The notes under the pieces are model-generated. The model was not told the DNA's origin. It did not search any database and worked only from the letters and a program-made list of their open reading frames with translations. Shown piece after piece: positions 8,894-31,520 of a stretch of 64,000 nt of DNA. The position numbers and the translations under genes are program-made. The stretch is taken from NCBI RefSeq assembly GCF_014764365.1, contig NZ_CP061718.1, positions 2,806,501 through 2,870,500 on the forward strand, given 5' to 3'. Source of the stretch: Roseococcus microcysteis (GTDB lineage Bacteria; Pseudomonadota; Alphaproteobacteria; Acetobacterales; Acetobacteraceae). Numbering within the stretch: position 1 is the first letter of the stretch; every line of letters starts with the position of its first letter.

Positions 8894-8983
8894 GAAACCT
8901 CCAGATGAAACAGGAACCTGACCCGCGCGAACGGGCCATGCTGCAATGCAGCAATTCCTGTGCCAGCCGGTGGCGTCAGCGCC

Positions 8984-18130: not shown

Positions 18131-19105
18131 ATGCTGACAACCTTTGCCGTTCGCCAAGGGGCACTTCTGCGGGGGGAGGAGGCGGCGCCGCTGCGCGGGG
18201 CCGTCTGGATCGACCTGCTGGATCCCACGCCCGAAGAGGAGCGCCTGGTCGAGGAGGCGGTGGGCTTCGAACTCCCCTCGCGCGAGGAGATGCAGGAGAT
18301 CGAAAGCTCCTCCCGCATGTACCGCGAGGGAGATGTGCTGTTCCTCACCGCGAACTTCCTGCACGGCGTGGAGGGCAGCGACTATGAGTCCACGCCCATC
18401 TCCTTCGTGTTGGCCCCCTCCGTGCTGGTCACGGTGCGCCATGCCACGCCCAAGGCCTTCTCCGTCTTCACCGCCCGTTGCCAGAAGGCGCCGGAGGCAC
18501 TGCTGGGCAGCCCGGACGCCGTGCTGCTGCACCTGTTCGGCCAGATCGTGGACCGGCTGGCGGATATCCTGGAGCGGATCGGTCTCGACATCGACCGCGC
18601 CAACCAGGACGCCTTCCGCGCCGCCCGCAGCGCCAAGAAGGTGACGCAGAAGGACCAGGACCTGCGCTCGGTGCTGCTGACGCTGGGCCTGGTGGGCGAC
18701 CTGACGGCGCGGACCACGGACACCCTGCTCGGCCTCACGCGCATCCTGACCTTCCTGACCGCCGAGAAATCCGCGGTGCGCAAGGAGAACCAGCACCTCA
18801 TCAAGACGCTGGTGCGCGACGTGCGAAGCCTGGTCGAGCACGGCAATTCCATGAACCACAAGGCGACCTTCCTGCTCGACGCCGTGCTGGGCATCATCAA
18901 CGTCGAGCAGATGAACATCATCAAGACCTTTACCGTGGTGAGCGTGGCGCTGATGCCGCCCACCCTCATCGCCAGCATCTACGGCATGAACTTCCAGCAC
19001 ATGCCGGAGCTGGAATGGCCCATCGGCTACCCCCTGGCGGTGCTGGCCATGATCCTGAGCGCGCTGGGGCCCGTGCTCTACTTCAAGCGCAAGGGCTGGC
19101 TGTAG
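18131..19105 (+). CDS. corA: CorA family magnesium transport protein
   Basis: A Mg2+/Co2+ channel of the CorA family, 324 residues. The cytoplasmic N-terminal domain is followed by a long helix, then two C-terminal membrane segments joined by the ion-selective YGMN motif (about residues 284-287) and the MPEL loop, both diagnostic. It ends with a short basic tail (FKRKGWL). An AAGGA ribosome site is present. Palindromic sequence starts 9 bases after its stop; that may end its transcript, or belong to the mrp promoter downstream. Confidence 0.95.
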   Translation: MLTTFAVRQGALLRGEEAAPLRGAVWIDLLDPTPEEERLVEEAVGFELPSREEMQEIESSSRMYREGDVLFLTANFLHGVEGSDYESTPISFVLAPSVLVTVRHATPKAFSVFTARCQKAPEALLGSPDAVLLHLFGQIVDRLADILERIGLDIDRANQDAFRAARSAKKVTQKDQDLRSVLLTLGLVGDLTARTTDTLLGLTRILTFLTAEKSAVRKENQHLIKTLVRDVRSLVEHGNSMNHKATFLLDAVLGIINVEQMNIIKTFTVVSVALMPPTLIASIYGMNFQHMPELEWPIGYPLAVLAMILSALGPVLYFKRKGWL

Positions 19106-19114
19106 CCGCCGCCG

Positions 19115-19153
19115 CGTCCGGCTTTCCGGACGCCGCGTTCGGCTTTGCGAACG
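19115..19153. promoter_or_regulatory. Tandem palindromes: candidate enhancer sites for a sigma-54 activator (or corA terminator)
   Basis: Two 18-bp dyads lie in tandem: CGTCCGGCTTTCCGGACG (19115-19132) and CGTTCGGCTTTGCGAACG (19136-19153). They match at 15 of 18 positions. One C-G pair of the first is replaced by T-A in the second, so the symmetry is kept. Their centres are 21 bp apart, about two helical turns, and lie about 120 and 99 bp upstream of the start point predicted from the sigma-54 promoter. That is the usual arrangement of NtrC-type activator sites. The same sequence could fold as two small hairpins after corA, but no T tract follows. Confidence 0.55.
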
Positions 19154-19215
19154 GGCGCTGACGGCCCACGCGCGGCCGTGCCGCGCCTTTCCGCGCTTTC
19201 CGCCGGGGCATGCGG

Positions 19216-19232
19216 TTGGCACGGCTGTTGCA
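19216..19232 (+). promoter_or_regulatory. Sigma-54 (-24/-12) promoter of the mrp/cation operon
   Basis: TTGGCACGGCTGTTGCA matches the sigma-54 consensus YTGGCACGRNNNTTGCW at every specified position, with correct GG to GC spacing. It predicts transcription starting near 19243, two bases before the GTG of mnhA. A sigma-54 activator gene with GAFTGA lies in the same operon, and two palindromes of suitable type lie about 100 bp upstream. Confidence 0.8.
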
Positions 19233-19244
19233 ACATTCGCCGCC

Positions 19245-21521
19245 GTGAACTGGATCCTCGCCCTCATCCCCTGCCTGGCGTTGCTGGCCGTTCCGGCGGT
19301 AGCGCTCGGCCTGCGCGCGCGCCCCGCGCTCGCCCCCGCGCTGGCGCTGCTGCCGGCGACGCTCTTCGGCCTCATCCTGCTGCTGCCGCTGGGCGCCACC
19401 TTCCGCCTGGACTGGATGCCGGCCTTCGGCATCGGCTTCGCCTTCCGCCTGGACGGGCTGTCGCAGCTGATGGCGCTGCTCATCACCGGCATCGGCACCG
19501 GCATCTTCCTGTTCTCGGGCAGCTACATGACCAGCTACCCGAAGCAGCACCGCTTCATGGCGGTGCTGACGCTGTTCATGGCGGCGATGCTGGGCGCGGT
19601 GCTGGCCGATGACCTGATCGTGCTGTTCATCTTCTGGGAGCTGACCAGCCTCGCCTCCTTCATGCTGATCGGCTTCGAGGCCCACAAGCCCGCCGCCCGG
19701 CGCGCCGCACAGCAGGGCCTGCTGGTGACGGTCTCGGGCGGGCTCGCGATGTTGGCGGGCATCCTGCTGCTGGGCACGGCGGCCGGCACCTTCACCATTT
19801 CCGAGATCCTGGCGAACCGCGCCGTGCTGGCCACGCATGCCTTCACGCCCTGGATCATCGTGCTGGTGGCGATGGGCTGCTTCGCGAAGTCGGCGCAGTG
19901 GCCGCTGCACATGTGGCTGCCCAATGCGATGGCGGCACCTACCCCCGTCTCGGCCTATCTGCATTCCGCCACGATGGTGAAGCTCGGCGTCTATCTGCTG
20001 GCGCGGCTGAACCCGGCCTTCCAGGAATGGGCGCTGTGGCAGGGGCTGCTGACCGGCGCGGGCACGCTGACCATGCTGACCGGCGCCGTGCTGGCCCTGC
20101 GCGAGCGCGACCTGAAGCGCAAGCTCGCCTGGTCCACCGTGGTGGCGCTGGGCACGCTGGTGACGCTGATTGGGCTGGAGGAACCGCTGGCGGCCACCGC
20201 GGCCGTGGTGTTCCTGCTGGTGCACGCGCTCTACAAGGCGAGCCTGTTCCTCGTGGCCGGCATCCTCGACAAGAAGGCCGGCACACGCGACGCGCTGATG
20301 CTGCGCGGCCTCGGCCGCCACATGCCGCTCACCGCCATCGCGGCACTTCTGGCCGCGCTCTCCATGGCCGGCGCGCCGGGCTTCATCGGCTACATGGCCA
20401 AGGACCTGCTGTTCACCGTGCAGCTCGGTGTGCCCGGGCTGCTGCCCCTGGTGGCGCTGCTGGTCAACGCGGCCATGGTGGTGGTGGCCGGCGTGGTCGC
20501 GGTGCGGCCCTTCTTCGGCAAGCCCATGGAAATGGAGCGCCAGGCCAAGGACCCCGGCTTCACCATGCTGGCCGCGCCGCTGACGCTGGCCATCCTGGGC
20601 CTCGTCTTCGGCCTGGCGCCCGCGCTGATCTCGGTGAACCTGGTCGAGCCCGCGGCCGCCGCCATCCTGGGCGAGCCCACCGGCATCGCGCTGGGCGACA
20701 AGCACGCGACCGAGATCGTCTACTACCTCTCGCTGGTGGTGCTGGGGCTGGGCGTCATCGCCTTTCTCGCCTGGACGCGGTTGCAGCCGCGCCTCGCCGC
20801 GCAGACCTGGCTCGACGACTACGGGCCGGACGCCGCCTATGGCCGCATCCTGCGCGGCGTCTCCGTGATCTCCGGTGCGGTGACGCGCCGTGTGCAGACC
20901 GGCAGCCTGCGCTTCTACATCGGCGCGACGGTCGTGCTGATGTTCGGCGGCACGCTGGTGCTGCTGGTGGCGGGCGGCGGCCTTGGCCTGCCCTCGGCCG
21001 ACCCGTTGCCGTTGCCGCACCAGGCCGTGCTGGTGGGCCTCGTCATCGCGGGCGCGGTGGCCGTCTGCCGGCTGCAGATGCTGTTCGCGCAGGTGATGGC
21101 GGCCGCGGTGGTGGGCTTCGGCGTCGGCATCCTGTTCCTGACGCTGGGCGCGGCGGACCTCGCCTTCACGCAGTTCACCGTCGAGACCATCGCCATCGTG
21201 CTGCTGGTGGCCATCCTGGCGCGCCTGCCCTTCCGCGAGCTGGATGCGCGCCGGCGCGAGGAACACCGCCGCGACGGCGCCATCGCCATCGGCGCGGGCG
21301 TGGTGGGCTTCCTCACGCTGCTGGCCGTGCTGTCCGTGCCCTTCGACACCCAGATGCCCGACTGGATGGGCGCCGCCGCCTGGCCCGAGGCGAAGGGCCG
21401 CAACGTCGTCAACGTCATCCTGGTGGATTTCCGCGCGCTGGACACGCTGGGCGAGATCGCGGTGCTGCTGATCGCGGCGCTGGCGGCCACGGTGCTGCTG
21501 CGCCGCGCGCGGGGGAAGTGA
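19245..21521 (+). CDS. mnhA: Mrp-type Na+/H+ antiporter subunit A
   Basis: The large membrane subunit of the multisubunit Na+(K+)/H+ antiporter, 758 residues, related to complex I NuoL. Hydrophobic segments run throughout. The NuoL-like core includes SGSYMTSYPKQHRFM, FWELTSLASFMLIGFE (conserved Glu), the MGCFAKSAQWPLHMWLPNAM motif and SAYLHSATMVKLGVYLLAR. The C-terminal extension (about residue 560 onward) is the MbhD/MbhE-type module fused in most MrpA proteins and includes a DLAFTQFTVETIA stretch. It starts at GTG with no Shine-Dalgarno sequence. The predicted sigma-54 transcript would begin two bases before it, so the mRNA may be leaderless. Confidence 0.93.
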   Translation: MNWILALIPCLALLAVPAVALGLRARPALAPALALLPATLFGLILLLPLGATFRLDWMPAFGIGFAFRLDGLSQLMALLITGIGTGIFLFSGSYMTSYPKQHRFMAVLTLFMAAMLGAVLADDLIVLFIFWELTSLASFMLIGFEAHKPAARRAAQQGLLVTVSGGLAMLAGILLLGTAAGTFTISEILANRAVLATHAFTPWIIVLVAMGCFAKSAQWPLHMWLPNAMAAPTPVSAYLHSATMVKLGVYLLARLNPAFQEWALWQGLLTGAGTLTMLTGAVLALRERDLKRKLAWSTVVALGTLVTLIGLEEPLAATAAVVFLLVHALYKASLFLVAGILDKKAGTRDALMLRGLGRHMPLTAIAALLAALSMAGAPGFIGYMAKDLLFTVQLGVPGLLPLVALLVNAAMVVVAGVVAVRPFFGKPMEMERQAKDPGFTMLAAPLTLAILGLVFGLAPALISVNLVEPAAAAILGEPTGIALGDKHATEIVYYLSLVVLGLGVIAFLAWTRLQPRLAAQTWLDDYGPDAAYGRILRGVSVISGAVTRRVQTGSLRFYIGATVVLMFGGTLVLLVAGGGLGLPSADPLPLPHQAVLVGLVIAGAVAVCRLQMLFAQVMAAAVVGFGVGILFLTLGAADLAFTQFTVETIAIVLLVAILARLPFRELDARRREEHRRDGAIAIGAGVVGFLTLLAVLSVPFDTQMPDWMGAAAWPEAKGRNVVNVILVDFRALDTLGEIAVLLIAALAATVLLRRARGK

Positions 21522-21524
21522 GCC

Positions 21525-21923
21525 ATGAAGACCAGCTTCATCATGAACGCCTCGGCGCGCTACGTGCTGTGGGCCTGCGTCCTCCTCTCCCTCTTCGTGC
21601 TGCTGCGCGGCCACAATGAGCCGGGCGGCGGCTTCATCGGCGGGCTGATCGGCGCGCTGGGCTTCGTCTTCCACGCGCTGGCGCGCGGGGCGGGGGCCAC
21701 GCGCGCGGTGCTGCGGCTGCAGCCGCTGACCTGGGCGGGCATTGGCCTGCTGTTTGGCATCCTGGCCGGCCTGCCGGCGCTGCTGCTGTTCGGGGAGCCC
21801 TTCCTCACGCAGCAATGGCTGGGCACCACCCCCATCGGCACCACCGTGCTGTTCGACCTGGGCGTCTACCTCGTCGTGCTGGGCTTCGCGCTCGCCTTCG
21901 TGCTGCCCTTCATGGAGGCCTGA
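21525..21923 (+). CDS. mnhB: Mrp-type Na+/H+ antiporter subunit B
   Basis: A 132-residue membrane subunit of the Mrp antiporter with four hydrophobic segments. The family motif [22 protein letters not shown] is visible near residues 26-47 (core [13 protein letters not shown]). It starts 3 bases after the mnhA stop codon, and mnhC follows after 4 bases. Confidence 0.93.
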
Positions 21924-21927
21924 GCCC

Positions 21928-22362
21928 ATGGAATTCCTCCTGGCGCTCCTCTTCGGCGTGCTGCTCTCCGCCGCCATCTACCTGCTGATGGCGCGTTCCC
22001 TCGCGCGCTCCATCCTGGGCCTGCTGCTGCTGGGCAATGCGGCCAACATCGCCATCATCGCCAGCGGCCGCGTGCTGGGCTGGGCGCCGCCGCTCGTGGC
22101 GCCCGGCGCCAATGCCCTGGTGGCCGATGCCTCCAACCCGCTGCCGCAGGCGCTGGTGCTGACGGCCATCGTCATCTCCTTCGGCCTCACGGCCTATGTG
22201 ATGGTGCTGAGCTGGGCGGTGTGGCGCGGCAAGGGCACGGTGGACACCGAGGCGCTGCGCGTCGCCGAGCCGCGCGGCCTGCCCGCCGCCGATGCGCGTG
22301 AAGCCGCGGAGGCCGAGACGCTGGCCGCCGACCTGCTGCCCACCCGCACGGGAGCGCGCTGA
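21928..22362 (+). CDS. mnhC: Mrp-type Na+/H+ antiporter subunit C
   Basis: A 144-residue, NuoK-like subunit with three membrane segments. The family stretches LLGNAANIAIIASG and DASNPLPQALVLTAIVISF are present. The C-terminal tail after the last helix (TEALRVAEPRGLPAADAREA) is longer than in many MnhC proteins. The ATG at 21928 follows a GGAGG-type site; the open frame before it is shadow of mnhB. The stop overlaps the ATG of mnhD (TGATG). Confidence 0.93.
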   Translation: MEFLLALLFGVLLSAAIYLLMARSLARSILGLLLLGNAANIAIIASGRVLGWAPPLVAPGANALVADASNPLPQALVLTAIVISFGLTAYVMVLSWAVWRGKGTVDTEALRVAEPRGLPAADAREAAEAETLAADLLPTRTGAR

Positions 22363-23876
22363 TGGCCACCCGCGCCGACTGGCTGCTCGCGCTGCCCCTC
22401 CTCCTGCCGCTGCTGGCCTGCGCGGCCACGGCGGCGCTGCAATCCCGCCGCGACCTCCAGCGCGGCATCACCGCCATCACCGCGGTGGGCCTGCTGCTGG
22501 CCTCCGCGGCCCTGGTGGCCGAGGTGATCGGGCGGGGCGTCATCGCCTCGCAGATGGGCCAATGGCCCGCGCCCTTCGGCATCACGCTGGTGGCGGACCT
22601 CTTTGCCGCCTCCATGGTCGCGATCACGGCGCTGATGTATGCCGCCACCGCCCTCTACGCGCGCGGTGACACGGACGTGCTGGAGAACGAGGCGCTGTGG
22701 CACCCGCTGCTGGCCGCGCTGGCCCTTGGTGTCGGCGGCGCCTTCCTGGCGGGCGACCTGTTCAACCTCTACGTCTGGTTCGAGGTGATGCTCATCGCCT
22801 CCTTCGGCCTGATCGTGCTGGGCGGCGGGCGCGAGCAGCTGGATGGCGCGGTGAAATATGCCATGCTGAACCTGCTGGCCACGACGGTGTTCCTGATTTC
22901 GGTCGGCATGATGTACGGGCTGACGGGCACGCTGAACCTGGCCGACATGGCCCGCCGCATCCCGGAGATCGAGAACCAGGGCGCGGTCGCGGCGGTGGCC
23001 TTCCTCATGCTGGCGGCCTTCGGCGCCAAGGCGGCGGTGTTCCCGCTGTTCTTCTGGCTGCCCGCCTCCTACCACACGGCCATCGCGCCCGTGGCGGCCA
23101 TCTTCGCCGCGCTGCTGACGAAGGTCGGTGTCTACGCGCTGATCCGCATCGTCACGCTGCTGCTGCCCGAGGGCCATGCCTGGGTGGCGCCGCTGATGTG
23201 GTTCCTCGCCGCCGGCACCATGGTGGTGGGTGTGCTGGGGGCAGCCGCGCATTGGGAAATCCGGCGCATCCTGTCGTTCCACATCATCAGCCAGATCGGC
23301 TACATGATCGTGGGCATCGCCATCGCGACACCCTTGGCGCTGGCGGGTGCCGTTCTCTACATGCTGCACCATATCGTGGTGAAGGCGAACCTGTTCCTGG
23401 TGGCGGGTGTGATCCGCCGCGCGGGCGGCACCTTCTCGCTGGCCACGCTGGGCGGGCTGTGGCGCCGCGACCCGTGGCTCGGCCTGCTGTTCGCCATTCC
23501 CGCGCTGTCGCTGGCCGGCATTCCGCCGTTCTCGGGCTTCTGGGCCAAGCTGTTCGTGTTGAAGTCGGGCTTTGACGCGGGCTGGTATGTGCTGGCGGGC
23601 ATCGCGCTCGCGACGGGCATCCTCACCCTCTACTCCATGCTCAAGATCTGGATGGAGGCCTTCTGGAAGGAAGTGCCCGAGGGCACGCCCGAGCTGCCGA
23701 CCATCACCGGCGCCACGCGCTGGCTGCTGCTGGCGCCGGTCGCGGGGCTTGGCCTCATCACCATCACCATCGGGCTCTGGACCGAGCCCTTCGCCGCCTT
23801 CGCGCTGGCTGCCGGCGAACAGCTCGCCAGCCGGGAGGCCTACATCACCGCCGTGATGGGAGTGATCCGGCCATGA
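22362..23876 (+). CDS. mnhD: Mrp-type Na+/H+ antiporter subunit D
   Basis: A 504-residue NuoN/NuoM-like membrane subunit with about 14 hydrophobic segments. The conserved glutamate lies in the FNLYVWFEVMLIASFG segment, and a lysine-bearing helix is AKAAVFPLFFWLPASYHTA (core KAAVFPLFFWLP). ILSFHIISQIGYMIVG is the discontinuous-helix region. Together with MnhA it forms the proton-translocating half of the complex. Its end overlaps mnhE by ATGA. Confidence 0.94.
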   Translation: MATRADWLLALPLLLPLLACAATAALQSRRDLQRGITAITAVGLLLASAALVAEVIGRGVIASQMGQWPAPFGITLVADLFAASMVAITALMYAATALYARGDTDVLENEALWHPLLAALALGVGGAFLAGDLFNLYVWFEVMLIASFGLIVLGGGREQLDGAVKYAMLNLLATTVFLISVGMMYGLTGTLNLADMARRIPEIENQGAVAAVAFLMLAAFGAKAAVFPLFFWLPASYHTAIAPVAAIFAALLTKVGVYALIRIVTLLLPEGHAWVAPLMWFLAAGTMVVGVLGAAAHWEIRRILSFHIISQIGYMIVGIAIATPLALAGAVLYMLHHIVVKANLFLVAGVIRRAGGTFSLATLGGLWRRDPWLGLLFAIPALSLAGIPPFSGFWAKLFVLKSGFDAGWYVLAGIALATGILTLYSMLKIWMEAFWKEVPEGTPELPTITGATRWLLLAPVAGLGLITITIGLWTEPFAAFALAAGEQLASREAYITAVMGVIRP

Positions 23877-24226
23877 CCGAGAAAGCCCCGACCCCACGCC
23901 CCTGGAACATCCTGGCCTGGCTCTGGCTGCTGGTGCTGTTCCTGCGCGAACTGGTGCTCTCCGCCTGGGCGGTGATCAGCGCCACGCTGGCGCCCAATGT
24001 GCGCGCGCGCTCCGGCGTGGTTGCGGTGCCGCTGCGGCTGCGTTCCGCGGCCGGCATCACGTTGCTGGCCGACATGGTGACGCTGACACCCGGCACCACC
24101 GCGCTGCATGTCTCGGAGGACCGCAGCATTCTCTACGTGCATGTCATGGACATCGAGAGCCCCGAAGCCGTCCGCGCCAGCATCGCGGAACGGCTGGAGC
24201 GCCCGGCGATGCGGGTGCTGCGATGA
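23873..24226 (+). CDS. mnhE: Mrp-type Na+/H+ antiporter subunit E
   Basis: A 117-residue subunit with one clear N-terminal hydrophobic stretch (LAWLWLLVLFLRELVLSAW) and a soluble C-terminal part. The family region LTPGTTALHVSEDRSILYVHV is present (core TPGTTALHV). It is shorter than many MnhE proteins (about 160 residues), having lost part of the N-terminal membrane region. It overlaps both neighbours by ATGA. Confidence 0.9.
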   Translation: MTEKAPTPRPWNILAWLWLLVLFLRELVLSAWAVISATLAPNVRARSGVVAVPLRLRSAAGITLLADMVTLTPGTTALHVSEDRSILYVHVMDIESPEAVRASIAERLERPAMRVLR

Positions 24227-24513
24227 GCTTCCTGACCGTCGCCCTGATCTTCTCCGCGCTCATGGTCGCGGTGGCCGTGGGCCTGACCGGCTGGCGCATG
24301 CTGCACGGACCGGGCATCGCCGACCGTGCGGTGGCGATGGACCTGCTGGGCCTGCTCGCCGTCGCGGCCACCGCGCTGGTGGCGCTGGGCGGTGGCTACC
24401 TCGCGCTGCTCGACATCGCGCTGGGCCTGGGCCTGGTGGGCTTCATCGGCGCCGTGGGTGTCGCCACCTTCATCAAGCGCGCGTCCGAACCGCCGGAGGA
24501 CCAGGATGTCTGA
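24223..24513 (+). CDS. mnhF: Mrp-type Na+/H+ antiporter subunit F
   Basis: A 96-residue subunit with three membrane helices and the family segment LHGPGIADRAVAMDLLG between the first two. It overlaps mnhE by 4 bases and mnhG by 8 bases, so translation of E, F and G is probably coupled. Confidence 0.93.
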   Translation: MSFLTVALIFSALMVAVAVGLTGWRMLHGPGIADRAVAMDLLGLLAVAATALVALGGGYLALLDIALGLGLVGFIGAVGVATFIKRASEPPEDQDV

Positions 24514-25729
24514 GATCGTCGCGGCGCTGCTGCTGCTGTCGGGCGCCACCATCTCGTTGATCGCGGCCATCGGCGTGGCGCGCCTGCCCGATGCCTTCCT
24601 GCGGATGCACGCGGCCACCAAGGCCGGCGTGGTCGGCGCGGGGCTGACGCTGCTCGGCGTCGCCTTCGCCTTCGACACGGGCGAGGCCTGGTTCCGCGTC
24701 ACCCTCATCGTGGTCTTCCTGCTGGTGACGGTGCCCATCTCCTCCCATGCGCTCGGGCGCGCGGCCTATGTGGGCGGGGCGCCCATGTGGTCGGGCACGG
24801 TGATGGACGACCTCAAGGGCGTGCTGCCGCGCCATGCCATTGATGCGGACCCCGAGGCGCAGCGCGCCATCGCCATGCCGGTGGGTGCCGCCGGCCCCGA
24901 GACGGGCGCCCGGCCCGCGCCGCATGCCGCCGCCGCCCCGCGCCGCATGCTGCTGGCCCTGGCCGATGGGTCGGGTGCCGCCGCCGCGCTGCGCGCCGCG
25001 CTGGAGGTGACCGCCGGCCCGCGCACCGAGGTGACGCTGCTGAGCCTGCTCTGCACGCCCAGCCTCAACCAGACCGGTCCCATGCCCGTGGGCGGCGCGC
25101 ATTTCGGACGCCGCCTGGTGGAGGGCCGCTTCGCCAAGGCGCGTGAGGCCGCGGCTTCGCTCGCCACCCAGATGGAAACCTTCTGCCAGACCCAGGGCTA
25201 CCATTTCCGCATGCGCCACGAGGAGGGCGATGCGGGCACCCTGCTGGGCCATGCCGCCGCGCATCATGACCTGACGGTGCTGCCGCGGGGCACCTGGTTC
25301 GACCACGCGCAGGCGCTGGAGGAGGGCTATGCCGCCCAGCGTTCGGCGCGCGTGTCGCTGCCCGGGCTGCTGCTGGCCGCGCCCGACTTCACCATGCCCG
25401 GCGCGCTGCACTTCCTGCACGAGGGCGACCTGGCCTCCAGCGAGGCGCTGAAGCGCTTCCTCGGCCTCTCCTTCCTCGCGCACCTGCCATTGACCATCAC
25501 GGGGCTCGACCTCGACGGCGCGGAGGCGGCGCTGGAGGAGGCGGTGGCCCTGGCGGCGGCGCGCGAACGCCCGGTGCATCGCGGCCCCGTGCTGCTGCAC
25601 CCTGATCGTCCGGCACCGCTGCCGGCCTTCACGGGCGGCGCGCTGGCCATCATCCCCGCCCGCTCCTCCTCCGGACGCACGGCGTGGCGCAGCCTGCGGG
25701 AGATGGAGGCCTCGGTCCTTCTCGCCTGA
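24506..25729 (+). CDS. mnhG: Mrp-type Na+/H+ antiporter subunit G fused to a universal-stress-like C-terminal region
   Basis: Residues 1-100 are a typical MnhG: three membrane helices with VARLPDAFLRMHAATKAG in the first loop. MnhG normally ends at about 110-130 residues, but here the same frame runs on without a stop to residue 407. The extra part (about 145-407) has an alternating strand/helix pattern beginning PRRMLLALADGSGAAAAL. It includes a DLTVLPRG strand and a second, similar half from about 270 (LPGLLLAAPDFT). This resembles two tandem universal-stress-protein folds, but the ATP-binding glycine motif is not evident. I infer the fold from pattern only. It would place a cytoplasmic sensor or regulator on the antiporter. 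Confidence 0.82.
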   Translation: MSEIVAALLLLSGATISLIAAIGVARLPDAFLRMHAATKAGVVGAGLTLLGVAFAFDTGEAWFRVTLIVVFLLVTVPISSHALGRAAYVGGAPMWSGTVMDDLKGVLPRHAIDADPEAQRAIAMPVGAAGPETGARPAPHAAAAPRRMLLALADGSGAAAALRAALEVTAGPRTEVTLLSLLCTPSLNQTGPMPVGGAHFGRRLVEGRFAKAREAAASLATQMETFCQTQGYHFRMRHEEGDAGTLLGHAAAHHDLTVLPRGTWFDHAQALEEGYAAQRSARVSLPGLLLAAPDFTMPGALHFLHEGDLASSEALKRFLGLSFLAHLPLTITGLDLDGAEAALEEAVALAAARERPVHRGPVLLHPDRPAPLPAFTGGALAIIPARSSSGRTAWRSLREMEASVLLA

Positions 25730-25759: not shown

Positions 25760-27207
25760 ATGGCCTGCCCCCATATGGGCCGCATGCCGCTTCGCTACTC
25801 CCGTGCCTGGAACGCGCTGCCCATCGCGCTCAGCCTGCCGCTGCTGGCGGGGCTGGCGGCCTTCGCCGCGGCGCTGATCGTGGCGCAGGTGGCGACACGC
25901 TCCCTGGAGCGGGAATTCGCGCGGGAGGCGGCGCGGCTCGGGGCCGTCTATCTCGACGGCATCTCGGCGGCGCTGATCGAACCCCTGCGCGCGGGCGACC
26001 CGCGCGCCATAGAGGCCGTGCTGTTGCGCGCCCTGGGTTTCCAGGAGGGCGTGCGGGAGCAGCGACTGGTGGTGGTGCCCGCCCCGGGGGCCGTGCCCAT
26101 CGTGGTCGGCGCGCGCGAGGACCCGGCCCTGCCGCCCCCCTTCACCCAGGGCCGCAACACCGCATGGGAGGTCTCGCCCGATGCCCGCAGCGCCTGGGCG
26201 CAGCGCACCCTGTTGGTGGAGGGCGCCCCCCCGCCCAGGTCGCCGCGCAGCTCGATTTCGCGCGGTCGTTGGAACGGCGCGCGCAACTCGGGCCGCTGCT
26301 GCTGGGGCTGGAGGGGATGCTCGCGGCCCTGGCCGGCATGCTGGTCGCGTTGCTGACACGCCGGGCCTTGGCGCCGCTGCTGGCCGTCACCGAGGCGCTG
26401 GACCGCGCCGGCGCCGGCGATTTCCGCCCGAGCACTGCCGCGCAGCGCCCGCCCGCCGGCACCGAGGCCGCGCGGCTGATCGAGGCGGTGGACCTCATGG
26501 CCGCGCGCCTCGCGGAGCGCGAACGCCTCGCCGCGCGCCTCGCGGAGCGTGCCCAGGCGGCGGAACTGGGCGACCTCGCGGCCACGGTGGCGCATGAGGT
26601 TCGGAACCCCCTGGCCGGCATGCTGACGGCGCTGGGTTCCGCCCGCCGCTTCGGCGAGAGCCGGGCGGCGCGCGAGGAGGCGCTGGACCTCGTGGAGCGC
26701 GGTCTTCGGCAGATCCAGCAGGTGGTGCAGACCACGCTCGACGTCCATCGCGGCACCCTGGCCCCGCGCCCCCTGACGCGCGAGGATCTGGAGGATGTGG
26801 TGCGCCTGGTCCGACCGGAGGCCGAGCGGCGCGGGCTGCGCCTGGAACTGGCGGGCGAACTGCCGGAACCCTTCCCCGCCGACGCGCTGCCGGTGCGTCA
26901 GGCGCTGCTGAACCTGCTGCTGAACGCGGTGGCGGCGACCGGAGCGGGCGGCGTGGTTTCCTTGGGTGTCAGACGCGAGGCGGATGGCACGCTGCGCCTG
27001 GAAGTGGCCGATGAGGGCGGCGGCCTGCCCGAACCCGCCCTGCGCCAGATCGAGGGGGGAGCGCGCAGCGGGCCGGGCCTCGGGCTGTCGGTGGTGATGG
27101 CGCAGCTGGCGCGTCTGGATGGCCGCATCGAGGTGGATTCCCGCCCTGGCGAGGCCACGCACATCGCCCTCTTCCTCCCGCCCGCGCCGGAGGGCGCGCC
27201 CGCATGA
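25760..27207 (+). pseudogene. Sensor histidine kinase, frameshifted at a C run (possible sequencing error)
   Basis: A two-component kinase split by one frameshift. The first part (from ATG 25760, with GAGG upstream) has a membrane helix (IALSLPLLAGLAAFAAALIV) and a periplasmic region ending TLLVEGAP. The rest continues in the next frame with PAQVAAQLDFARSLERR, a second membrane helix, a HAMP-like linker and the kinase core. The H box is ATVAHEVRNPL (His codon near 26592), the N box [11 protein letters not shown], and the G boxes VADEGGGLP and GPGLGLSVV. The break lies in seven C residues at 26226-26232; one more C restores a single protein of about 482 residues. Everything else is intact and it overlaps its response regulator by ATGA, so I think the gene is functional and the break an error. 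Confidence 0.82.
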
Positions 27208-28514
27208 GCGTCCCCGTGGTCATCATCGAGGATGACGAGGTGCTGGGCGGCGCCCTGGTGCAGCGCCTGCGGCTGGAGGGCTTCGCGCCGCGCTGGGCGC
27301 GCACCCTGGCCGAGGGCGAGGCGCTGCTGGCGCGCGGCCCCCGGGCGCTCTGCGTGCTGTGCGACATGCGCCTGCCCGATGGCTCGGGCGAGGCGCTGCT
27401 GCTGCGGCTGATGCCCAGCCTGGGCGCCACCCCCGTCATCGCCATGACGGCCTATGGCGGGGTGGAGCAGGCGGTGCGCCTGGTGCGCGCCGGGGCGGAC
27501 GACTACCTGACGAAACCCTTCGAGATCGAAGCGGTGCTGGCGCGGCTCTCGGCGCTGAGCCCGCTGGCCGAACCGCCCGCCCCCGCCGGGACGGTGGGCT
27601 GGCAATCGCCCGTCATGCAGGCGCTGGAGAACGACCTCACGCGGCTCGCGCCCGCCCTGGCCCCGGTGCTGCTGCTGGGCGAGAGCGGGGCGGGCAAGGA
27701 GGTGGCCGCGCGCCGCCTGCACGCCATGGGCCCCCGCGCCGAGGCGCCCTTCGTGGCGCTCAACTGCGCCGCCATCCCGCGCGACCTGCTGGAAAGCGAG
27801 GTCTTCGGCCATGAGCGCGGCGCCTTCACGGGTGCCGCCGAACGCCGCCTGGGCGCGGCCGAACGCGCCGGCGCCGGCACCCTGCTGCTGGACGAGGTGG
27901 CGGAGCTGGAACCTGCCCTCCAGGCCAAGCTGCTGCGCCTGCTGGAGGACCGGCGCTTCCTGCGGGTCGGCGGCGCCAAGGAAATCCCGCTGGAGGCGCG
28001 CGTGGTGGCGGCCACCAATGCGGACCTCGCCGCCCGCGTGGCCGAGGGGCGCTTCCGCGGCGACCTCTACTACCGCCTGGCGGTGGTGGAGCTGCATGTG
28101 CCGCCGCTGCGCGAACGCGCGGAGGACATCCTGCCGCTGGCGCACGCCCTGCTGGCCGAAAGCGCCCGGCAGGCGGCGCGGGTGGACCTCTCCCTCACGC
28201 CCGAGGCCGAGGCTGCCCTCGAAGCCCATCCCTGGCCCGGCAATGTGCGGGAACTCCGCAACCGCATCGAGCGCGCGGCCCTGCTGGCCCCCGCCGCCGC
28301 GCTGACGCCGGCCGACCTCTTTCCCGGGGCCGTGGCTCCGCCCGCGCCGCAGACCCTGGCCGAGGCGCGCGACGCGGCCGAGCGCGCGCACATCCAACGC
28401 ATGCTGGCGCGCTGCGGGGGCCGCATGGCCGACGCCGCGCGCCTGCTGGGCATTTCGCGCACCACGCTGTGGGAACGCGCGAAGCGGCTCGGCCTTTCCC
28501 CTCAAGAGGATTGA
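27204..28514 (+). CDS. Sigma-54-dependent response regulator (NtrC/AtoC class)
   Basis: A 436-residue transcriptional activator in three parts. The receiver domain (about 1-120) has IEDDE and the phosphorylation aspartate in CDMRLPDG near residue 53. The central AAA+ domain has Walker A GESGAGKE near 159, the sigma-54-contacting loop GAFTGA near 205, and Walker [11 protein letters not shown] near 230. A C-terminal Fis-type helix-turn-helix reads [21 protein letters not shown]. The GAFTGA loop means it should open sigma-54 promoters; an exact sigma-54 promoter precedes mnhA at the head of this block. It is coupled to the kinase gene upstream by ATGA. Direct control of the mrp operon is inferred from proximity and promoter type. 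Confidence 0.95.
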
Positions 28515-28523
28515 GACCTTCCC

Positions 28524-29507
28524 ATGGAACTCGCGCTCTGGCTGCTCGGCGGCCTGGTCCTGCTGGTGCTCGGCGGTGAATTGCTGGTGCGCGGGGCGGT
28601 GCAGATCGCCGCACGCCTCGGCATCTCGCCGCTGCTGGTGGGGCTGACGGTGGTGGCCTTCGGCACCTCCATGCCGGAGCTGGTGACCAGTGTGCAGGCC
28701 TCGCTGGCCGGGTCGCCGGGCATCGCGCTGGGGAACATCGTGGGCTCGAACATCGCGAATGTGCTGCTGATCCTGGGCGTGGCGGCGCTGCTCTGCCCCG
28801 TCGCGGTCAATTCACGCGCCCTGGCACGGGATGGGGGATTGGGTTTCCTGGCCGCGCTGGCGCTGCTGGCGGTGGGGCTGTTCTGGACGATGGACCGCGC
28901 GGTGGGGCTGCTGCTGCTGCTGGGGCTCGTCGGCTACATCGTCTTCGCCTACCGGCAGGAGCGGTTGGCGGATGGCGCCGACCACGGCGCCGCCTATGAC
29001 AAGGCCGAGGCCTTCGCCGCGGCGCAACCCCCCGCTCTGCCCCTGTCACGCGCGCTGGGCGGGCTGCCGGGCGCCATCCTGCAACTGGTGGCGGGGCTCG
29101 GGCTGATCGTGGCCGGGGGTGCCGTGCTGGTGGACGCCGCCGTGACGCTCGCCCGCGCGCTGGAAGTCTCGGAGGAGGTGATCGGCCTGACCATCATCGC
29201 CGTCGGCACCTCATTGCCCGAGCTGGTCACCTCGGTCGTGGCCGCGCTGCGGCGGCAGGCGGATGTGGCGCTGGGCAATGTGCTGGGGTCCAACATCTAC
29301 AACATCCTGGGCATCGCGGGCGCCACGGCCTTGATCGCGCCGACCGAGGTGCCGGCCGCCATCGCCAACTTCGACGCCTGGGTGATGGTCGCCGCCGCCC
29401 TGCTGCTGCTGGTGGTGGCCCGCACCGGCTGGCGGGTGGGCAGGCGCGAGGGCGGGGTTCTGCTCGCCTGCTATGCGGCCTATGTCTGGAGCGCCTGGCC
29501 CGCCTGA
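28524..29507 (+). CDS. Calcium/sodium antiporter (CaCA family, YrbG-like)
   Basis: A 327-residue cation/Ca2+ exchanger with about ten membrane segments. The two inverted alpha-repeats that form the ion site are clear: [15 protein letters not shown] with [16 protein letters not shown] (about residues 50-85), and [15 protein letters not shown] with [16 protein letters not shown] (about 230-265). Both carry the essential glutamates. It starts 9 bases after the response regulator, and ktrB follows after 20 bases, so it belongs to the cation block. Confidence 0.93.
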
Positions 29508-29527
29508 GCCAGTCTGGAGGAACGCCA

Positions 29528-30859
29528 TTGGGGCGCACGCTGGCCCACCCCGCCCGCATCATCCCGCTGGGCTTCCTGGCGGCGATCCTGCTGGGCACCG
29601 CCCTGCTGATGCTGCCCGTCTCCCGCGCCGGGCCAGGGGGCGCGCCCTTCATCACCGCGCTGTTCACCGCGACCTCGGCCGTGTGCATCACGGGCCTCGC
29701 GGCGGTGGACACGGCCACCTACTGGTCGGGCTTCGGCCGCGGTGTGATCCTGGCGCTGTTCCAGCTGGGCGGCTTCGGCATCATGAGCGGCGCCACGCTG
29801 CTGGGCCTGCTGGTGGCGCGGCGGCTGCGCCTGGGCACGCGGCTGATCGCGCAGCATGAGACCCGCAGCCTGGGCCTGGGCGATGTGAAGCGCGTGCTGC
29901 AACTGGTGCTGGGCATCACCGTGGTGGTGCAGGCGGCGGCGACGCTGGCGCTGGCGCTGCGGCTGCGGCTGGGCCACGGGATGGGCTGGGAGGAGGCGCT
30001 GTGGCACGGGCTGTTCCACGCCGTCTCGGCCTTCAACAATGCGGGCTTCTCCACCTTCAGCGACAGCATGGTGGGCTTCGCGCGGGACCCGCTGGTGCTG
30101 GCGCCGGTGGGGCTCGCGGTGTTCATCGGCGCCATCGGCTTCCCCGTGGTGGCGGATTTGCTGCGCGACCCCTGGCGGCCCGCGCGCTGGTCGCTGCACG
30201 CGAAGCTGACGTTGGTCGGCACGGCCATCCTCTTCGGTGGCGGCGTCCTCGCCCTGCTGGCCTTTGAGTGGGACAATGCCGCGACCCTGGGGGCCCTCGA
30301 ATGGCCGCACCGGCTGGCAAACGCCGCTTTCCATTCCGCCATGCTGCGCTCCGGCGGGCTGAACAGCGTGGATGTGGGGCTGATGCGCGACGAGACGCTG
30401 ACCGTCAGCTACGCGCTGATGTTCGTGGGCGGCGGCAGCGCCGGCACGGGCGGCGGCGTGCGGGTCACCACGCTGGTGGTGCTGGCGCTGGTGGTCTGGG
30501 CGGTGGCGCGGGGCGAGCCGGATGCCAATGTCTTCGGCCGCCGCATTCCCGTGGAGGTCCAGCGCCAGGCGCTGGCGGTGGTGATGCTGGCGCTGGCGCT
30601 TTGCGCCGGCGGTTCGCTCGCCCTGCAAATCCTGACGGATTTCCCCCTGCGCGACGTGATGTTCGAGGTGATCTCCGCCACCGCCACGGTCGGCCTGTCC
30701 ACCGGCATCACGCCCGACCTGCCGCCCGCCGCGCAATTCGTGCTGGCGGTGTTGATGTTCACGGGCCGGGTGGGCACCGTGACCGTCGTCACGGCCCTGG
30801 CCCTGCAACGCGGCCTGAACCCCTACCGCTATCCCGAGGAGCGCCCGATCGTTGGCTAG
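29528..30859 (+). CDS. ktrB: Potassium uptake protein KtrB/TrkH family
   Basis: A K+-translocating membrane subunit, 443 residues, with four pore loops: SAVCITGLAAVDT, AFNNAGFSTF, LRSGGLNSVDVG and SATATVGLSTGI, each with its filter glycine. The length and its pairing with a short one-domain regulator fit Ktr (often Na+-dependent) better than the longer TrkH/TrkA pair. The start is a TTG supported by a GGAGG ribosome site 7 bases upstream; there is no ATG at a plausible place. It overlaps ktrA by 8 bases. Confidence 0.9.
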   Translation: MGRTLAHPARIIPLGFLAAILLGTALLMLPVSRAGPGGAPFITALFTATSAVCITGLAAVDTATYWSGFGRGVILALFQLGGFGIMSGATLLGLLVARRLRLGTRLIAQHETRSLGLGDVKRVLQLVLGITVVVQAAATLALALRLRLGHGMGWEEALWHGLFHAVSAFNNAGFSTFSDSMVGFARDPLVLAPVGLAVFIGAIGFPVVADLLRDPWRPARWSLHAKLTLVGTAILFGGGVLALLAFEWDNAATLGALEWPHRLANAAFHSAMLRSGGLNSVDVGLMRDETLTVSYALMFVGGGSAGTGGGVRVTTLVVLALVVWAVARGEPDANVFGRRIPVEVQRQALAVVMLALALCAGGSLALQILTDFPLRDVMFEVISATATVGLSTGITPDLPPAAQFVLAVLMFTGRVGTVTVVTALALQRGLNPYRYPEERPIVG

Positions 30860-31520
30860 GATCATTCCGCATGGCGATATCGTCGTCATCGGCCTTGGCC
30901 GCTTCGGCGGCGCGGTGGCGGCCGAACTCGCCAAGCTCGGCCATGACGTGCTGGGCGTGGACGAGAATGCCGAACTCGTCCAGTCCTGGTCCGACCGGCT
31001 GACCCATGTGGTCCAGGCCGATTGCACCAGCAGCGAGACGCTGCGCCGGCTGGGCATCGCCGAGTTCAGCCACGCCGTGGTGGCCATCGGCACGGATCTG
31101 GAGGCCAGCGTGCTGACCGTGCTGGCGCTGAGCGAGCTGGGTGTGCCCGACATCTGGGCCAAGGCGCTGGGCCCCAAGCATGGGCGCATCCTGGAGCGCA
31201 CGGGCGCGCACCATGTCGTCTATCCCGAGGCGGAGATGGGCGAGCGGGTGGCCCACCTGGTCGTCGGCGGCAAGATGATGGACTTCATCGAGCTGGATGA
31301 CGGCTTCGCCATCGGCAAGACCCGCGCGCCGCCCGAGGCCATCGGCAAGACGCTGACCGAATGCGGGCTGCGCCGGAAGCATGGCGTGACCGTGGTGGGG
31401 GTGAAGCGCCCGCGCGAGGAATTCACCAACGCCACCCCCGACACGCTGATCCAGGCGGGGGACCTGCTGATCGTCTCCGGGCCGACCGACAAGGTGGAGG
31501 CCTTCGCCCGCATCACGTGA
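30852..31520 (+). CDS. ktrA: Potassium uptake regulator KtrA (RCK, NAD-binding)
   Basis: A 222-residue cytoplasmic gating subunit. The Rossmann motif VVIGLGRFGGAVAAEL begins near residue 11, with the dinucleotide-binding aspartate in GVDENAEL. An RCK_N domain fills the first 140 residues and an RCK_C domain the rest, ending DLLIVSGPTDKVEAF. One RCK pair only (TrkA has two) supports the Ktr assignment. It begins at a TTG inside the end of ktrB, with GAGGAG upstream. This is the last gene of the cation block; a multi-arm palindrome follows. Confidence 0.9.
   Translation: MARIIPHGDIVVIGLGRFGGAVAAELAKLGHDVLGVDENAELVQSWSDRLTHVVQADCTSSETLRRLGIAEFSHAVVAIGTDLEASVLTVLALSELGVPDIWAKALGPKHGRILERTGAHHVVYPEAEMGERVAHLVVGGKMMDFIELDDGFAIGKTRAPPEAIGKTLTECGLRRKHGVTVVGVKRPREEFTNATPDTLIQAGDLLIVSGPTDKVEAFARIT

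Follow-up and report, generated by a model that had tools for sequence, protein, structure and literature searches.

Two-component systems of the NtrB/NtrC, DctB/DctD and MifS/MifR type use sigma-54 promoters, and Mrp antiporters help cells to tolerate salt and alkali. The locus described here appears to bring the two together. It lies in a 64,000-nucleotide stretch of the Roseococcus microcysteis genome (contig NZ_CP061718.1, positions 2,806,501 to 2,870,500; the whole stretch is called the window below), in which a seven-gene Mrp operon, mnhA to mnhG, follows a candidate sigma-54 promoter with two palindromes upstream and is itself followed by genes for a sensor histidine kinase and an NtrC-type response regulator. 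With the three described systems it shares a kinase paired with a receiver-AAA+-helix-turn-helix (HTH) regulator, the GAFTGA motif, the paired palindromes, the -24/-12 element and a transporter as target. It differs from them in that the target is a seven-subunit Mrp cation/proton antiporter, the operator has the form GTYCGGN4CCGRAC, the predicted start point all but coincides with the start codon and the regulator falls under all curated cut-offs among the NCBIfam matches listed. The described Mrp/Mnh/Pha operons likewise encode A to G as separate subunits in the customary order; here, in contrast, the kinase and sigma-54 activator genes stand directly downstream, a sigma-54 promoter stands upstream and MnhG carries a C-terminal extension.

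Our analysis points to mnhA-G being under the control of a sigma-54 promoter fired by the linked NtrC-type regulator, a reading to which we assign a probability of roughly 87%. Its direct basis is the sites themselves, the protein domains, the joint presence and absence of promoter and regulator in relatives, and the way in which operator and recognition helix vary together; from these we infer binding, phosphorylation, activation, co-transcription and a signal. The initial annotation had raised the possibility of a new regulatory circuit. The design is that of an ordinary NtrC-type circuit, and it is the target for which no earlier report was found: no recognisable report of sigma-54, RpoN or NtrC control of Mrp antiporters was present in the open-access literature searched, and two papers that compare sigma-54 regulons (PMC3162934, PMC12316311) use no antiporter term in their main text.

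The mnhA promoter region and its putative activator

The sequence TTGGCACGGCTGTTGCA was verified upstream of mnhA, its sigma-54 core being TGGCACggctgTTGC, which agrees with TGGCAY-N5-TTGC at 10/10 scored positions and so bears out the exact -24/-12 match first claimed for it. Further upstream are the palindromes cGTCCGGctttCCGGACg and cGTTCGGctttGCGAACg, 21 bp apart centre to centre, with centres 119.5 and 98.5 nt before a start point predicted as 12 nt past the C of the GC element; the same spacing, and distances of about 99 and 120 bp, had been proposed in the initial annotation and hold to within 1 bp. Paired activator sites were defined as palindromes some 70-150 bp upstream on one helix face, and this is where the two are found. 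The genome (4.2 Mb, one contig) holds 17 exact matches to TGGCAY-N5-TTGC as against 4 for the reversed control pattern, and one match to rpoN. Palindromes occur within 260 bp upstream of only two of the 17, the mnhA site and a site before a sulfite-dehydrogenase-like gene. A second exact match in the window (8951-8965, minus strand) is without such palindromes; the gene behind it resembles, by eye, a tripartite-tricarboxylate receptor.

The product of the regulator gene is classed by domains and motifs as an NtrC-class sigma-54 activator. It has a receiver domain (PF00072), a Sigma54_activat domain (PF00158, E 3.7e-60) and a Fis-type HTH domain (PF02954), with CDMRLPDGS at 53 in the region of the phospho-acceptor Asp, LTKPF at 102, Walker A GESGAGKE at 159, GAFTGA at 206, Walker B LLLDEV at 227 and the recognition helix SRTTLWER at 418. 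Compared with NCBIfam equivalogs (PEP_resp_reg, NtrC, AtoC, ZraR, NtrX and others), it exceeds none of the curated cut-offs among the matches listed (25 of 72 matching models), the best score being 345.6 bits against a cut-off of 502.6. A GAFTGA activator and its kinase had been placed together at 25760-28514; the regulator stands, but the kinase does not stand as an intact frame. The frame opened at 25760 stops at 26356, the HisKA/HATPase part lies in a different frame, and the switch falls at or next to a run of seven C residues (26226-26232); sensor part, HisKA and HATPase_c are thus not found in one frame in the window genome, and in the two closest relatives (L136, L137) the kinase is one open frame. 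The break may be a sequencing error, a real mutation or phase variation.

In the circuit that we propose, the adjacent membrane kinase would sense a signal and phosphorylate the receiver Asp of the regulator, dimers of which would occupy the palindrome pair near -119 and -98. The bound regulator would form a hexamer and loop to sigma-54 RNA polymerase at -24/-12, where its GAFTGA AAA+ ATPase would open the promoter, so that mnhA-G would be transcribed from the sigma-54 promoter solely when the regulator is active. As the kinase and regulator genes begin 30 nt after mnhG, the loop is probably self-amplifying. A switch of this kind would hold the operon silent without the signal and induce it strongly with it, so that a reporter could be used to test directly for the inducing signal.

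Joint occurrence of promoter and regulator in relatives

Relatives of MnhA and the regulator were sought in 60 genomes (its own included) and in 397 of the family, and of MnhA only in 21 of the genus. Sorting of 29 Acetobacteraceae mnhA copies by the genes after mnhG gave 19 linked to the kinase-regulator pair, 7 unlinked and 3 undecided because the contig ends early (G013, G009b and G130); G002, in which the cluster is split over two contigs, was counted as linked. The linked copies comprise 8 of a window-like clade A and 11 of clade B, whose MnhA is 52-54% identical. For each copy the 90 bp upstream were scored against TGGCAY-N5-TTGC, a consensus fixed beforehand, and 9/10 or better was taken as positive. 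Such a site was found in 18/19 linked copies, in none of the 7 unlinked (best 8/10) and in two of the three undecided, an association of promoter with linkage for which Fisher's test, ignoring phylogeny, gives p = 1.2e-5. With a filter that allows only A/G at half-site position 5 and G/C/A at position 6, at least one palindrome was present in every linked copy (19/19) and in 0/7 unlinked copies; of the undecided copies, G013 and G009b also had one or more and G130 had none. At least two were present in 14 of the 19 linked copies. The check proposed in the initial annotation, that box and palindromes be conserved along with the regulator, came out in favour of its proposal. Where there are two sites they are 21, 30, 31, 32 or 33 bp apart, or about two or three helical turns, with 30-33 bp in most paired relatives other than the window; the exception is G015, with three matches 22 and 36 apart.

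The upstream gene varies. A match to corA, the gene before mnhA in the window, was seen only in the window, G010 and G003 and in none of the other fetched stretches, and in G013 the neighbour of mnhA is the end of hrpB with the sites still present; since the sites are kept beside differing upstream genes, they belong to mnhA. A tree of the 26 classified MnhA copies requires five changes of the linkage label, of which at least three are forced by supported branches; linked copies of clade A branch among unlinked ones, and every clade B copy (11/11) is linked. The tree thus indicates that promoter and regulator were gained or lost jointly more than once. It replaces an earlier 40-row tree (seven changes, at least five forced) that had included six distant copies labelled unlinked unchecked. 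In 13 distant Mrp copies (L041-L048, L050, L051 and L053-L055; MnhA 38-45% identical), which stand outside the table of 19, 7 and 3 and whose downstream genes were unchecked, no -24/-12 element of 8/10 was found upstream. A scan of genome contigs with MnhA returned four loci, two of them from Roseococcus (R. suduntuyensis, 99% identical, and R. thiosulfatophilus, 98%). In L097 and L098, which come from G079 and G402, genomes of two genera, mnhA and the upstream regions are practically identical, suggesting recent transfer or contamination.

The position of the promoter relative to the start codon is likewise kept. In all 20 positive Acetobacteraceae copies (the 18 linked ones, G013 and G009b) the first in-frame start codon comes 1-5 nt after the predicted start point, and no Shine-Dalgarno-like stretch precedes the mnhA GTG; a predicted leader of 1-5 nt implies, as judged from that start point, that the mnhA mRNA would be leaderless. 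Short leaders are not the rule at the sigma-54 sites of the window genome, as the sulfite-dehydrogenase-like gene has its start codon 35 nt from the predicted start point with GGAGGAA in front. At five mnh loci of other alphaproteobacterial families, described below, the distance is 3, 16, 17, 21 and 23 nt. A start-site study in Bradyrhizobium reported that an extended -10 motif precedes leaderless mRNAs, and stated that specific promoters for genes of this kind had not been described (PMC4842269). If the predicted geometry is true, it would add a promoter class to leaderless mRNA and would lock the position of the promoter to the start of translation.

Operators, recognition helices and the wider regulator family

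A regulator match of E 1e-105 or better was found in 14/387 alphaproteobacterial genomes (own included), and 14 loci were taken from the other 13. Five of these loci, in four other alphaproteobacterial families, are mnh-kinase-regulator clusters; one of their sigma-54 sites scores 10/10, two score 9/10 and two 8/10, and each locus has at least one palindrome, with two in L176 and L177. At six of the nine loci without mnh, a sigma-54 site scoring 9/10 or better lies with palindromes just downstream of the regulator. Within the Acetobacteraceae, eight regulators without mnh were fetched, of which those of L123-L129 have tctBA nearby and that of L130 a gene for a Na+:sulfate-type symporter; operators adjoining the pair are clear in L123, L124, L125, L126 and L128 and weak in L127, and a sigma-54 site with palindromes was not found at L129, nor beside the pair at L130. 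The window genome itself holds a paralogous pair (L116:11400-11680) beside the sulfite-dehydrogenase-like gene, with a regulator 55-56% identical to the mnh-linked one and a target promoter made up of an exact sigma-54 site and two similar palindromes 31 bp apart. Among the pairs beside tctBA, symporter or sulfite-dehydrogenase-like genes, a sigma-54 site scoring 9/10 or better stands with similar palindromes next to the pair in L116, L123, L124, L125, L126, L128 and L174. The regulators of these relatives are 46-66% identical to the mnh-linked one, and their target genes are different. In the regulator tree clades A and B each form one group, and clade A groups, with moderate support, with the tct- and symporter-linked regulators; pairing with mnh may have arisen twice or been lost in between.

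Operator and helix appear to change together. Regulators of clade A and those adjacent to tctBA have the helix SRTTLWER or close forms of it and the operator GTYCGGNNNNCCGRAC, whereas clade B helices read TTLWKR in 10/11 regulators and TTVWKY in G082, with half-sites of the GTTCAC/GTTCGC type. A WE- helix is accordingly paired with GTYCGG half-sites and a WK- helix with GTTCAC/GTTCGC. G occupies half-site position 5 in 28/30 half-sites of 15 clade A sites as against 8/32 of 16 clade B sites, a count that leaves out the near copies G010 and G003, the third G015 match and the single G390 match; the eight tct sites in the half-site comparison were selected and are not all matches. In other families, WEK regulators (L171, L173, L176, L178) go with GTTCGG operators and WK- regulators (L175, L177, L181, L183) with GTTCA or GTTCGC operators. 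FEK/FDK regulators (L172, L174, L182, L116) have more variable GTCC-type sites, and no operator for this comparison was found at L179, L180 and L184. The clade B copy G390, which was omitted from the count, breaks the pattern with a GTCCGC-type site and a WKR helix. The operator half-site and one residue of the recognition helix change together, a clean example of how regulator and operator coevolve within a family that is associated with several transport operons. A wider proposal is that a self-encoded two-component/sigma-54 circuit for Mrp is old in the Alphaproteobacteria, that its leaderless launch belongs to the Acetobacteraceae, and that the regulator lineage was recoupled to transport and redox operons with co-change of operator and helix; we consider the odds of this to be even.

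Alternative explanations and gene neighbourhood

Several observations weigh against control of mnhA-G by the linked regulator or limit the comparative evidence for it. The linked copy G082 lacks a good -24/-12 element (7/10 within 90 bp), and two of the mnh clusters outside the family score 8/10, level with the best unlinked copies. The palindrome filter was chosen after inspection of the sequences, and some filtered palindromes pair at just 4/6 positions (both in G002). On the tree of 26 copies, 60 of 500 label shuffles need as few changes. MnhA of G010 and G003 is 98-99% identical to that of the window and G079/G402a are nearly identical, so that the effective sample sizes are below the counts given. 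In G009 the regulator gene and the promoter-bearing mnh copy are on separate contigs; in the window strain the kinase frame break, if real, could impair signalling, and cross-talk from the paralog with similar operators may occur.

Three other readings have to be considered alongside these points. The palindromes could be a corA terminator or REP-like hairpins and the -24/-12 match a product of chance, as the first palindrome is hairpin-like and starts 9 nt past the corA stop codon. However, folding of the RNA of 19100-19250 is no better than that of shuffled sequences (z -0.78), a simple scan of 18900-19400 returned no terminator-like site, and the palindromes are retained where the neighbour of mnhA is not corA, and the 7 copies without the regulator show none that passes the filter. 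Nor is the motif a repeated element: GTYCGGN5CGRAC is found at 12 separate genomic positions, with a close pair only upstream of mnhA, and its reversed control is commoner (18+19 strand matches versus 8+8), which argues against a dispersed repeat family. The terminator or repeat reading was rejected on folding, genome counts, relatives and terminator scan, and this explanation as a whole is scarcely credible.

The promoter could instead be real and driven by another protein of the NtrC family, such as the sulfite-dehydrogenase-linked paralog, whose own target has the similar sites noted above; the retention of operators in G009, with the regulator on another contig, would also fit. Against this, presence of the promoter follows the linked kinase-regulator pair, operator type tracks the helix of the linked regulator, and a second regulator match of E 1e-110 or better is present in G000 and G010 but not in the promoter-bearing G003, among the matches listed; a different driver is therefore quite improbable. 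That mnhA is expressed mainly through a sigma-70 promoter or corA read-through, with the sigma-54 promoter minor or ancestral, is suggested by the co-directional corA, which ends at 19105 and leaves a gap of 139 nt. A simple consensus scan of 18900-19400 found no sigma-70-like site, a longer mnhA transcript would meet no Shine-Dalgarno-like stretch before the GTG, and the sigma-54 site is conserved, as is its spacing from the start codon, which makes this alternative unlikely. We thus favour the sigma-54 promoter fired by the linked regulator.

The features of the locus are collected in Table 1. Separate A to G subunit families are found in order by Pfam, as expected of an Mrp cation/proton antiporter operon; from mnhA to mnhG, neighbouring genes are no more than 4 nt apart or overlap slightly, and the kinase and regulator genes overlap by 4 nt. 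The initial annotation had the two-component pair driving mnhA-G and the cation genes beyond it. Comparison with relatives favours the mnh part of this claim but not the remainder, as the genes for the CaCA exchanger, trkH and trkA lie outside the conserved mnh-kinase-regulator cluster, although they are possibly co-transcribed with the mnh block.

Table 1. Features of the mnh locus (positions in the window)
Feature	Position	Strand	Basis or remarks
Putative upstream activator site 1, 18-bp palindrome cGTCCGGctttCCGGACg	19115..19132	.	7/9 pairs; kept with regulator in relatives
Putative upstream activator site 2, 18-bp palindrome cGTTCGGctttGCGAACg	19136..19153	.	6/9 pairs; kept with regulator in relatives
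Candidate sigma-54 -24/-12 promoter TGGCACggctgTTGC	19217..19231	+	consensus match; position kept in relatives
Predicted transcription start point, 2 nt before mnhA GTG	19243..19243	+	geometry only
mnhA/mrpA, 758 aa, GTG start	19245..21521	+	Proton_antipo_M, MbhD, MbhE
mnhB	21525..21923	+	MnhB
mnhC	21928..22362	+	Oxidored_q2, E 1.3e-17
mnhD	22362..23876	+	Proton_antipo_M
mnhE	23873..24226	+	MNHE, E 5.7e-31
mnhF	24223..24513	+	MrpF_PhaF
mnhG with long C-terminal extension	24506..25729	+	PhaG_MnhG_YufB on residues 8-87 only
Sensor histidine kinase gene, broken frame	25760..27207	+	HisKA/HATPase domains
NtrC-type response regulator, presumed activator	27204..28514	+	receiver, GAFTGA AAA+, HTH_8
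CaCA exchanger, trkH, trkA	28524..31520	+	co-directional; two gaps (9 and 20 nt) and one overlap (8 nt)

The C-terminal extension of MnhG, of about 300 aa, has no Pfam match. In tblastn searches it gave long matches in the regulator-linked copies and matches of about 90-115 aa in 6/7 unlinked copies, the exception being G229. In R. suduntuyensis (G010, L136:15265-16459) mnhG was matched in two parts that are read in different frames, which suggests that the frame of that gene is broken.

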